Origin: Bacteroidota bacterium
GTDB lineage: Bacteria; Bacteroidota; Bacteroidia; Chitinophagales; UBA10324
Assembly (NCBI GenBank): GCA_014190575.1
Contig: BJGQ01000020.1
Coordinates: 1-46,884 of the forward strand
Direction of reading: 5' to 3'
Length of the DNA: 46,884 nucleotides
Shown: positions 29,214 through 38,691 of the stretch, piece after piece
How the letters are laid out: every line of letters starts with the position of its first letter
Position numbering within the stretch: the stretch's first letter is position 1
The notes under the pieces: model-generated
What the model was told of the DNA's origin: nothing
What the model saw: the letters and a program-made list of their open reading frames with translations, nothing else
The model's database searches: none
Made by a program: the position numbers and the translations under genes

Positions 29214-29582
29214 AGCAGTAGGCAGTTGACAGTTGGCAGTAGTCAGTTTGCAGTAAGCTGCTAGTCAATATAAGTAATTAGTAAATACAAGTAAGCTCTC
29301 TGAAATATTGAGGGCTTTTTTTATTTGGTGTAACACTATTGTTCGGTGTTGCTCGCGTGACTGATTGCAACGGAAATCATTTTTTGTATTCAAAAAATAT
29401 TGGAGTGAAAAGCAGGACAGCATTTTTTGTTTCTTCGATAAACTCAGAATGACACCGCTTCGCTCAAAAAATGGTGGCACGCCCCCGTTATTTCAGTATA
29501 TTTTTTCATGCCAAACATTTATTAGGTATGAATGGATGCAGCAATTATTTTTGTGCGCTTCCCTCAAAACCAAACCTACTGC
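29214..29582. other. Repeat-like spacer before rpoD
   Basis: 29216-29270 is a degenerate repeat of caGTTgGCAGT-type words (gcagttgacagttggcagtagtcag). A weak terminator follows at 29293-29316. Another gtgtaaca is at 29328. 29425-29490 resembles a dispersed repeat (cttcgataaactcagaatga, then cgcttcgctc). No gene seen. Confidence 0.6.
29293..29316 (+). terminator. Probable terminator after the unknown protein
   Basis: aagctctc pairs with gagggctt (one G-T pair) around an AT loop, followed by a run of seven Ts. Confidence 0.6.
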
Positions 29583-30449
29583 ATGAGACAACTAAAAATT
29601 ACAAAATCGATTACCAACCGAGAGAGTCAATCGCTGGAGAAGTATCTTCAGGAAATAGGAAAAGTGGACCTCTTAACTGCTGAAGAAGAAGTTGATCTGG
29701 CAAAAAAGATTAAGCAAGGCGACGAACGCGCTTTGGAAAAACTGACTAAAGCAAATTTGCGATTTGTGGTTTCGGTTGCCAAGCAATATCAGAATCAGGG
29801 TTTGTCACTTAGTGATTTGATTAACGAAGGAAATTTAGGTTTGATAAAAGCCGGTCAGCGTTTTGATGAAACACGCGGTTTTAAATTTATCTCTTATGCT
29901 GTGTGGTGGATTCGTCAATCGATTTTACAGGCATTGGCTGAACAAAGCCGTATCGTCCGTTTGCCTTTGAATAAAGTGGGTTCGTTAAATAAAATCAACA
30001 AAGCATTTTCGGCGCTCGAGCAACAATATGAGCGCGAACCAAGCCCTGAAGAATTAGCGGAAGTTTTAGAAATCAATACTGAAGAAGTGGAAACTACATT
30101 GGGAATTGCTGCTCGACATGTATCGGTTGATGCTCCGTTTGTAGAGGGAGAAGATAATTCCCTGCTGGATGTGATTCCGAATTCCGGTGCGTCGGCTACT
30201 GATGATGCGCTGGAATACAAAGATTCGTTACGCAAAGAAATTGACCGTTCATTAAGCACATTAACTGATCGCCAAAAGGATGTGATAAAATTATATTTCG
30301 GAATTGGTGTTGAACATCCAATGTCGTTAGAAGATATTGGAGAGCGTTTCAGTCTGACTCGTGAAAGAGTAAGACAAATTAAAGATAAGGCTATAAATAA
30401 ATTGAGGGGAGCCACACGCAGTAAGCTATTAAAATCTTATCTTGGCTGA
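29583..30449 (+). CDS. rpoD: Primary RNA polymerase sigma factor (RpoD/SigA)
   Basis: 288 residues from the ATG at 29583 ([27 protein letters not shown]). Region 1.2 is [16 protein letters not shown]. Region 2 has [56 protein letters not shown], with the melting and -10 residues. Region 3 follows, and region 4.2 has [28 protein letters not shown]. The short form, lacking the acidic region 1.1, is the normal housekeeping sigma of Bacteroidota that reads TTG-N19-TAnnTTTG promoters. An upstream TTG start would add 17 unlikely residues. Confidence 0.93.
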
Positions 30450-37019: not shown

Positions 37020-38207
37020 TTATTTAATAACCTCAGTCACCTGACCAGCACCTACGGTACGACCTCCTTCGCGAATAGCGAAACGAAGACCCTTTTCCAT
37101 AGCTACAGGGGTAATGAGTTTAACAATGATTGACACATTATCACCAGGCATAACCATTTCAATTCCTGCTGGTAATTCACATTCTCCGGTAACATCTGTA
37201 GTTCTCATGTAGAACTGTGGACGATACTTATTAAAGAATGGAGTATGACGACCACCTTCTTCTTTAGAAAGAACATACACTTCACATTTGAAATCAGTGT
37301 GAGGAGTAATAGAACCAGGAGCGCAAACAACCATACCACGACGAATGTCATCCTTTTCAACTCCACGAAGAAGCAAACCAACATTATCGCCAGCTTCACC
37401 ATCATCAAGAATCTTACGGAACATTTCAACACCAGTAACAGTTGATTTTAATGAAGCATCCATGAGACCAACAATTTCAACAGGGTCTCCTGTATGAATT
37501 GCTCCTCTTTCAATACGACCAGTTGCAACAGTTCCACGACCAGTGATGGAGAACACATCTTCAACCGGCATTAAGAAAGGTTTGTCTTTAGCCCGCGGAG
37601 GAATTGGAATTTCAGTATCAACTGCTTCCATTAAATCTTCAATTGCCTTAATTCCATCAGGATCTTTATTCAGAGCTTTTAAAGCAGAACCACGAATGAT
37701 TTTGATTTTATCGCCGTCGAATTTATAAAAGCTAAGCAATTCGCGAACTTCCATTTCTACTAACTCAAGTAGTTCTGGATCGTCAACTAAATCGCATTTG
37801 TTTAAGAATACAACCAATGAAGGAACACCAACCTGACGGGCAAGCAAAATGTGTTCACGGGTTTGAGCCATTGGTCCATCAGTAGCAGCAATTACAATGA
37901 TAGCACCATCCATTTGGGCGGCACCTGTAACCATGTTCTTAATGTAATCGGCGTGTCCAGGACAGTCCACATGCGCATAGTGGCGATTAACCGTTTCGTA
38001 CTCAACATGCGCTGTATTAATAGTAATACCTCTCTCTTTTTCCTCAGGTGCTGAGTCAATTGAGTCGTATGAACGCTTTTGAGCAAGTCCTTTGTTAGCT
38101 AATACTTCCGTGATAGCGGCAGTCAAGGTAGTTTTACCGTGATCCACATGCCCGATTGTACCGATGTTAACATGGGGTTTGGTCCGTTCGAATTTTTCTT
38201 TTGCCAT
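37020..38207 (-). CDS. tuf: Elongation factor Tu
   Basis: 395 residues, full length. G1 is GHVDHGKT at 19-26, followed by [18 protein letters not shown] and the SALKALN-type G5. Domains 2 and 3 include the [17 protein letters not shown] and [24 protein letters not shown] stretches. It delivers aminoacyl-tRNA to the ribosome. It follows a tRNA cluster and precedes tRNA-Trp, secE, nusG and rplK. Confidence 0.98.
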
Positions 38208-38265
38208 GCTTGTGTTGTTTAAATTGTTGTGATTGTTTTTAAAATTTAATAAGGTTTTACCCTTG

Positions 38266-38342
38266 CGTTAATAACCGGATTCGAACCGACACTCTTTCTT
38301 AATCTTTCAATTAAGTCTGCTCTTCCACTGAGCTAAATTAAC
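38266..38342 (-). tRNA. tRNA-like element with unusual anticodon arm
   Basis: The minus strand has an AT-rich acceptor GTTAATT/TATTAAC (six pairs, the seventh mismatched), a normal D-arm GCTC...GAGC and a normal T-arm GTCGG TTCGAAT CCGGT. The anticodon arm folds as CTTAA/TTAAG around an 8-nt loop TTGAAAGA rather than 7, after three unpaired bases (AGA) instead of one. If the T before GAA is U33, the anticodon is GAA (Phe), but this is uncertain. It sits between tRNA-Thr(GGT) and tuf. Confidence 0.5.
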
Positions 38343-38363
38343 ATTTTACTTTCACTGATGATG

Positions 38364-38436
38364 AGCCAATGACCAGAATCGAACCGGTGACCTCATCCCT
38401 ACCAAGGATGTGCTCTACCAACTGAGCTACATTGGC
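38364..38436 (-). tRNA. tRNA-Thr (GGT)
   Basis: 73 nt: acceptor GCCAATG/CATTGGC, D-arm GCTCAGTTGGTAGAGC, anticodon stem CATCC/GGATG with loop TTGGTAG (GGT), T-loop TTCGATT. Confidence 0.95.
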
Positions 38437-38598: not shown

Positions 38599-38691
38599 CT
38601 GAATAATTTTTCAAAGAAATTTTATTACTTCAAATTTCTTTTTCAAAGAACTGATTTACTTAGAGTAAAAATCTACTCTCTCAAAACTTAG

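Follow-up and report, generated by a model that had tools for sequence, protein, structure and literature searches.

Why should a sequence with the outline of a tRNA stand directly in front of the gene for elongation factor EF-Tu, and does it still behave as a tRNA? The locus lies in a stretch of 46,884 nt (contig BJGQ01000020.1, referred to as the window; its genome is G000) from a member of the Bacteroidota, where the minus strand carries, in order, tRNA-Thr(UGU), tRNA-Tyr(GUA), tRNA-Gly(UCC), tRNA-Thr(GGU), the element, tuf, tRNA-Trp and a SecE-like and a NusG-like ORF, which we take to be SecE and NusG. The element starts 20 nt past tRNA-Thr(GGU) and ends 58 nt short of the tuf start codon. 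A first-pass annotation had noted a tRNA-like element at 38266-38342 next to tuf; its coordinates and arms proved right, on the minus strand, both by ARAGORN and by RF00005 (38.5 bits). The parts of the locus, in the direction of transcription, are as follows:

38363-38436, minus strand: tRNA-Thr(GGU), the presumed parent (ARAGORN, best alignment)
38343-38362, minus strand: linker from tRNA-Thr(GGU) to the element, poorly conserved
38266-38342, minus strand: tRNA-like element, 77 nt with its discriminator (ARAGORN, RF00005, cloverleaf descriptor; closest tRNA Thr(GGU))
38336-38342, minus strand: acceptor 5' strand GUUAAUU (6 of 7 pairs with 38267-38273, U-U at the seventh)
38319-38333, minus strand: D-arm GCUC-AGUGGAA-GAGC, including the D-loop GG (all 4 pairs formed, no change across six species)
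38298-38315, minus strand: predicted hairpin where a tRNA has its anticodon arm, 7 bp with a GAAA cap (folding, six-species alignment)
38274-38290, minus strand: T-arm GUCGG-UUCGAAU-CCGGU (all 30 cells paired across six species)
38267-38273, minus strand: acceptor 3' strand UAUUAAC, followed by the discriminator G at 38266
38251-38264, minus strand: short hairpin AAGG-GUAAAA-CCUU, one base past the discriminator (alignment and fold)
38208-38265, minus strand: A-rich leader between the element and the tuf start codon, conserved
37020-38207, minus strand: tuf, elongation factor EF-Tu, 395 aa

Measured against a canonical tRNA, the element has the cloverleaf with a D-loop GG and a T-loop of the UUCRA form (UUCGAAU), both of the tRNA type. 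The D-stem forms 4/4 pairs, the T-stem 5/5, two of them G-U, and the acceptor 6/7; the nearly all-AT acceptor that had been pointed out consists of G-C, U-A, U-A, A-U, A-U and U-A pairs followed by the U-U mismatch. The RF00005 score lies above the gathering score of 29 and compares with 53.9-71.3 bits for the five ordinary tRNAs of the window; genome-wide, the element stands 36th among 37 matches. A cloverleaf descriptor gives the spacer a score of 57, reached by none of 1000 dinucleotide shuffles (best 42), so the cloverleaf has not arisen by chance. ARAGORN reports 38265-38342 as 'tRNA-???' with a four-base anticodon 'gaaa'. At such a score and with so odd an anticodon arm, this is not the high-scoring ordinary tRNA with a normal loop that would have spoken against the first description.

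The anticodon arm lacks the 7-nt loop on a 5-bp stem with U33 and offers no usable anticodon loop. It can be read, as was originally proposed, as an 8-nt loop UUGAAAGA on 5 pairs; folding instead extends the stem to 7 pairs (CUUAAUU/GAUUAAG) under a GAAA tetraloop, a model that fits better. Across the six species of the genus the GAAA is invariant; four close it with U-G, one with C-G and one with U-A. G003 has a single A-A mismatch within the capped stem and a C, not a U, before GAA, and the sister genome G010 carries an unrelated 8-nt loop. A functional tRNA that decodes in some special way, for example through a four-base anticodon GAAA or as a second tRNA-Phe, would suit the ARAGORN reading and the invariance of GAAA in the genus, but we find it barely conceivable and reject it, as a separate gene for tRNA-Phe(GAA) is present elsewhere in the same genome, G003 has its C, the G010 loop is unrelated and GAAA is better understood as a tetraloop. 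ARAGORN finds a tRNA in 28 of the 29 genome regions checked, tRNA-Phe(GAA) included, the exception being a decayed gene on contig C10; these regions contain no tRNA-Ile(GAU) or tRNA-Ala(UGC), presumably because the assembly has a gap near the rRNA operons. Judging by the gene list, decoding can do without the element, which probably no longer reads codons. The missing CCA end carries little weight because among the 30 listed tRNA genes, a few of which lie at contig ends, only tRNA-Arg(CCU) encodes one.

The origin of the element is suggested by its nearest relative. Thr(GGU) is the best-aligning tRNA of the window's genome for the elements of G000, G005, G010 and G008; it ties with Pro(UGG) for that of G006 and falls outside the top five for that of G013. 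G010 also keeps the anticodon stem CAUCC/GGAUG of tRNA-Thr. Since the closest tRNA is the adjoining one, the element looks like an old, diverged tandem copy of the tRNA-Thr(GGU) gene (thrT). Outside the family, Bacteroidetes bacterium Bin7_1 (L131, SHNE01000017) has a thrT copy before tuf (33.9 bits) that is younger and independent. This copy, at 2337-2410 of its locus, has a spoiled anticodon arm and is named tRNA-His by ARAGORN. A possible tRNA remnant stands before tuf at 2093-2187 of L135 (27.6 bits, under the cut-off), where the cloverleaf descriptor finds the spacer unremarkable.

All six species of the genus examined have the element, as does G010. Mean pairwise identity among the six is 93% for the element (lowest pair 88%) and 93% for the leader that follows, compared with 66% for the preceding linker; identity at fourfold sites in the same species is 46% for secE, 53% for hpf, 62% for nusG and 78% for tuf. 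Within the same tRNA cluster, spacer lengths vary from 92 to 136 nt (Tyr-Gly) and from 11 to 88 nt (Gly-Thr). The D-loop GG and the T-loop UUCGA, which together form the elbow in tRNA, are kept in all seven clade copies (genus and G010). The G010 element measures 71-72 nt (31.3 bits with RF00005), the four other genus copies scanned score 43.8-44.3 bits against the 38.5 of the window's copy, and three of the six species share the U-U mismatch that ends the acceptor stem. Past the element, the AAGG/CCUU hairpin forms 4/4 pairs in all six without a varying pair, and hairpins of other sequence occupy the same place in G010, G006 and G013. The drift, loss or broken arms of a tRNA pseudogene are thus not seen in the genus (6/6 species at 93% identity), and the earlier suggestion of a degenerate tRNA is right as to descent, from a copy of tRNA-Thr(GGU), and wrong as to drift. 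Elsewhere in the cluster, GTTCTTTGA at 38643-38651 (minus strand) in the Tyr-Gly spacer recurs in 6/6 species although the spacer varies; we presume it to be a candidate boxA antitermination site, a single 9-mer of this type in the window being no more than expected by chance.

Drift in this genus can be pictured from one gene, tRNA-Lys(CTU). It is intact in G002, G004 and G008 (68.5-72.6 bits), ARAGORN also finds it in G011, and it has decayed in G000 (29.3 bits) and G003 (27.7 bits); G001 and G005 hold nothing beyond a weak match inside tRNA-Thr(UGU). The decayed copy of the window's genome is located as follows:

G000, contig C10, 43096-43168, minus strand: decayed tRNA-Lys(CTU) (locus L080), running against a neighbouring ORF whose start resembles atpD

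The element before tuf behaves differently from this gene.

Changes of sequence have largely respected the fold. Relative to tRNA-Thr(GGU), the G005 element has five changed pairs, two of them two-sided and none broken, and that of G010 has seven, four two-sided and one broken. The simulated probability of so few breaks, obtained by spreading the same numbers of changes at random on a hand alignment with tRNA-Thr as assumed parent, relatedness ignored and the rebuilt anticodon arm of the genus left out, is 0.003 for G005, 0.003 for G010 and 0.013 for G000. Within the genus alone, covariation stays at the level of shuffles (116 to 164 of 500 reach the observed value, over five measures) because the genus has too few changes; of the compensatory changes called for at the outset, some occur relative to the presumed parent and in G010, but they do not rise above shuffles within the genus. 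Of the cells for the named pairs, 97.5% are paired in the genus, against 25-51% when partners are slid by 1-3 columns.

Folding energies differ between copies. The window's copy, folded alone, has an unremarkable z of -0.83 (equalled or bettered by 39 of 200 shuffles) and is the weakest folder among the copies folded; G005, G003 and G010 give z values of -3.13, -2.36 and -2.73. The cloverleaf is the lowest-energy fold of the isolated element in, for example, G005, G004 and G002 and not in G003, G001, G010 and G013, G003 adopting it once the discriminator is included. This is a weak criterion, since the genuine tRNA-Thr(GGU) folded alone also misses its cloverleaf. When the leader and 60 nt of tuf are included, the full cloverleaf has the lowest energy in 2 of 10 copies (G005 and G002), and in the window's copy the T-arm is predicted to pair with tuf codons instead. 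In each of the six genus members the T-arm segment GUUCGAAU (38279-38286, minus strand) is complementary over 8 nt to AUUCGAAC in tuf codons 5-8, and it is this pairing that the longer fold of the window's copy adopts; G010 matches over 7 nt at another sequence, and G006, G013 and G008 match over only 4-5 nt. Both partners have other causes for their conservation, G010 differs and the remaining matches are short, so no covariation backs this putative pairing, which would resemble that of the T-loop in yjdF.

In the wider family, a group of uncultured bacteria, nine of the 16 genomes pass the cloverleaf descriptor: the six of the genus, G010, G006 and G013. In G008 the element was judged by eye; its D- and T-arms are good and its acceptor is bulged, and it fails both versions of the descriptor. 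There is no element in five genomes (G014, G015, G011, G007 and G012, the last read by eye on a contig that ends inside tuf), and G009 is unreadable, its tuf contig carrying no tRNA-Thr. Loss or drift in close relatives, named originally as counter-evidence, is absent from the genus; in the family those five genomes lack the element, so tuf has no general need of it. The elements of G006 and G013 are divergent from the genus type, and their descriptor scores are partly fitted, since the first version took only a 5-bp T-stem, missed both and was widened to 6 bp after their sequences had been inspected; RF00005 misses these two and G008 even with E up to 1. At the three loci (L014, L015 and L010 of G006, G013 and G008) the T-loop starts with AUCGU, not UUCGA, on 6-bp T-stems, and the usual U54-A58 pair would become A54-U58. 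An EF-Tu tree, drawn without G009, G012 and G015, unites the genus with G010 (100/99) and places G008, G006, G013, G014 and G011 in another clade (97/97), with G007 outside both (90/88). The distribution fits one origin with losses and two origins alike.

The element was also sought elsewhere. By gene order, 56 of 396 genomes have a thr-tuf spacer of 90-150 nt. ARAGORN found no tRNA in the spacers of 30 of these matches, and 28 spacers that were re-read contained one cloverleaf, a real tRNA (L094); the remaining 26 matches, six of them from the family, were seen as 80 letters each. A scan of the class matched 6 of 295 genomes, the element itself accounting for one match, that of the window; judged on 80 letters, that of G445 resembles an ordinary tRNA-Thr and the other four resemble chance. 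Since this pattern is limited to a UUCRA T-loop and a tight geometry, elements of the G006 type would escape it. From 235 relatives found through SecE, 80 named loci were retained and yielded 55 readable spacers, eight with a cloverleaf: six from G001-G005 and G010, a real tRNA-Gly (L127) and the thrT copy of L131. At L127 tRNA-Gly(UCC) and tRNA-Thr(GGU) have swapped places, and tRNA-Gly(UCC) now adjoins tuf. The named relatives (L120-L125) are assemblies from the environment, entered as Chitinophagaceae bacterium, Chitinophaga pinensis or Bacteroidetes bacterium, and we read their isolate names as pointing to fresh water.

Several known RNA families come to mind. Neither the yjdF riboswitch, which we take to be RF01764, nor any T-box leader is among the seven Rfam matches at gathering scores in the window. 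Flavo-1 RNA (RF01705, 50.2 bits) is found at 29346-29423 on the plus strand and ends about 110 nt before an ORF resembling a primary sigma factor (29532-30449, start codon uncertain). Bacterial Y RNA (YrlA, RF02553) has a tRNA-like part; its three sub-threshold matches (24-26 bits, cut-off 69; L007, L014 and L015) each lie over a real tRNA, and it was rejected because a Ro60/TROVE gene occurs in 0/16 family genomes. A likeness of a different kind exists to cis-tRNA and yjdF riboswitch leaders, described as tRNA-like folds with a D-loop/T-loop elbow upstream of a start codon (Trachman 2022, PMC9142559), and by its pairing potential the element is likewise a tRNA-like fold upstream of a start codon. 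According to the same account, however, the yjdF riboswitch is related to tRNA-Lys (PMC9142559), whereas the element is closest to tRNA-Thr, stands before tuf and belongs to a Bacteroidota lineage. The Bacillus cereus pseudo-tRNA tRNAOther is also non-decoding, is proposed in its description to be part of a larger RNA and flanks a genomic island (PMC3399842), in contrast to a position between tRNAs and tuf. The order of four tRNAs and then EF-Tu recurs in the Salmonella thrU-tyrU-glyT-thrT-tufB operon, for which the report lists four tRNA genes and tufB only (PMC6134099), so that the tRNA-like element is an addition here. Among the open-access titles listed, none concerns a tRNA-like element before tuf.

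The account that we tentatively favour, while granting that it may well be wrong, is that a copy of thrT has been kept as a non-decoding, tRNA-shaped leader of tuf that acts in cis on translation; the element may thus act on EF-Tu mRNA instead of decoding. Of the possibilities raised by the first-pass annotation the tRNA-mimic leader fits best, in view of the conservation at the thr-tuf junction, the cloverleaf score, the lack of a usable anticodon loop and the presence of tRNA-Phe(GAA) elsewhere, whereas its control of tuf is something we infer. Gene order suggests that the element is co-transcribed with the four tRNAs and tuf. Neither a minus-strand promoter of the sigma-70 type nor a terminator was found in the spacer, and the one plus-strand promoter-like match, at 38218-38245, is within shuffle expectation. 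Excision of tRNA-Thr(GGU) would leave a tuf mRNA that opens with a short linker, followed by the tRNA-like fold, the small hairpin and the A-rich stretch before the AUG, and the element would most likely stay on it. The fold could then help ribosomes to load on tuf, by analogy with tRNAs grafted onto mRNAs in the PURExpress kit, which is E. coli-based. In that setting, tRNAs grafted upstream of an ORF are reported to raise translation 2- to 6.3-fold with little dependence on the ACCA end, on mRNAs with Shine-Dalgarno sequences (PMC9142559). Against the precedent, Bacteroidia ribosomes are described as failing to recognise such sequences; in favour of a leader, Flavobacterium johnsoniae tuf is described as having none (PMC9976891). 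A more specific version, which we put forward as a speculation and trust somewhat less, is that the duplicated tRNA-Thr is a natural ligand-free cis-tRNA that sets the translation of EF-Tu, among the most abundant proteins of the cell, in bacteria that do without Shine-Dalgarno pairing, possibly by reading the state of the ribosome or of EF-Tu.

The main counterpoint to a leader is that RNase P and RNase Z could excise a cloverleaf with such an acceptor and T-arm and so remove it from the mRNA. In that case the element would be a processing cassette, and the tuf mRNA would start with the small hairpin, which perhaps protects its 5' end. The acceptor/T stack and the elbow, described as the features that both enzymes recognise (PMC4810234), are kept while the anticodon arm varies; a U precedes position 1 and a purine followed by C occupies positions 73-74 in 7/7 clade copies, hairpins of differing sequence follow the element in the genus, G010, G006 and G013, and an RNase Z gene is present (290.3 bits, just below the 292.95 cut-off). 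The U is weak evidence, as 7 of 20 linker positions are invariant in the genus. Against excision, three of six species cannot form the seventh acceptor pair, and tRNA-Thr(GGU), 20 nt upstream, already supplies the same cuts, so a second cassette would gain little. We therefore regard a cassette as rather unlikely and prefer the cis leader, because grafted tRNAs raise translation in vitro and a cassette would repeat the cuts of tRNA-Thr(GGU).

A little less probable still is that the element is a relic, thrT copies arising occasionally in tandem at the thr-tuf junction and decaying there, with the structure as the undecayed remainder. The independent younger copy in L131, the damaged acceptor of G008, the five family genomes without an element, the weakness of the window's copy beside those of its relatives and covariation within the genus not above shuffles are all as a relic would have them. 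Identity of 93% over six species, set against 46-62% at the fourfold sites of secE, hpf and nusG, is not, nor is the survival of pairs through two-sided changes relative to the tRNA-Thr parent; the one true decaying tRNA of the genus, tRNA-Lys(CTU), degrades or vanishes. The place in front of tuf also brings to mind feedback, EF-Tu binding the tRNA-like fold on its own mRNA and so limiting its own synthesis, and autoregulation of the tufB operon has reportedly been seen in Salmonella. Yet EF-Tu binds charged tRNA ends, and the element, which lacks both a usable anticodon and a G3-U70 pair and whose 3' end is not free on the mRNA, is unlikely to be charged. In the in vitro precedent, moreover, an ACCA mutation that lowers EF-Tu affinity is reported to have cost little expression (PMC9142559), and we consider such feedback very improbable.

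Should the preferred reading of a cis-acting leader hold and the element act on tuf, it would be a natural counterpart of the grafted-tRNA leaders, placed on the gene for EF-Tu and traceable in its origin to a tandem tRNA copy, and the relatives with and without it would provide a built-in comparison. It would also mean that a 'tRNA-???' in an annotation can conceal a regulatory leader.
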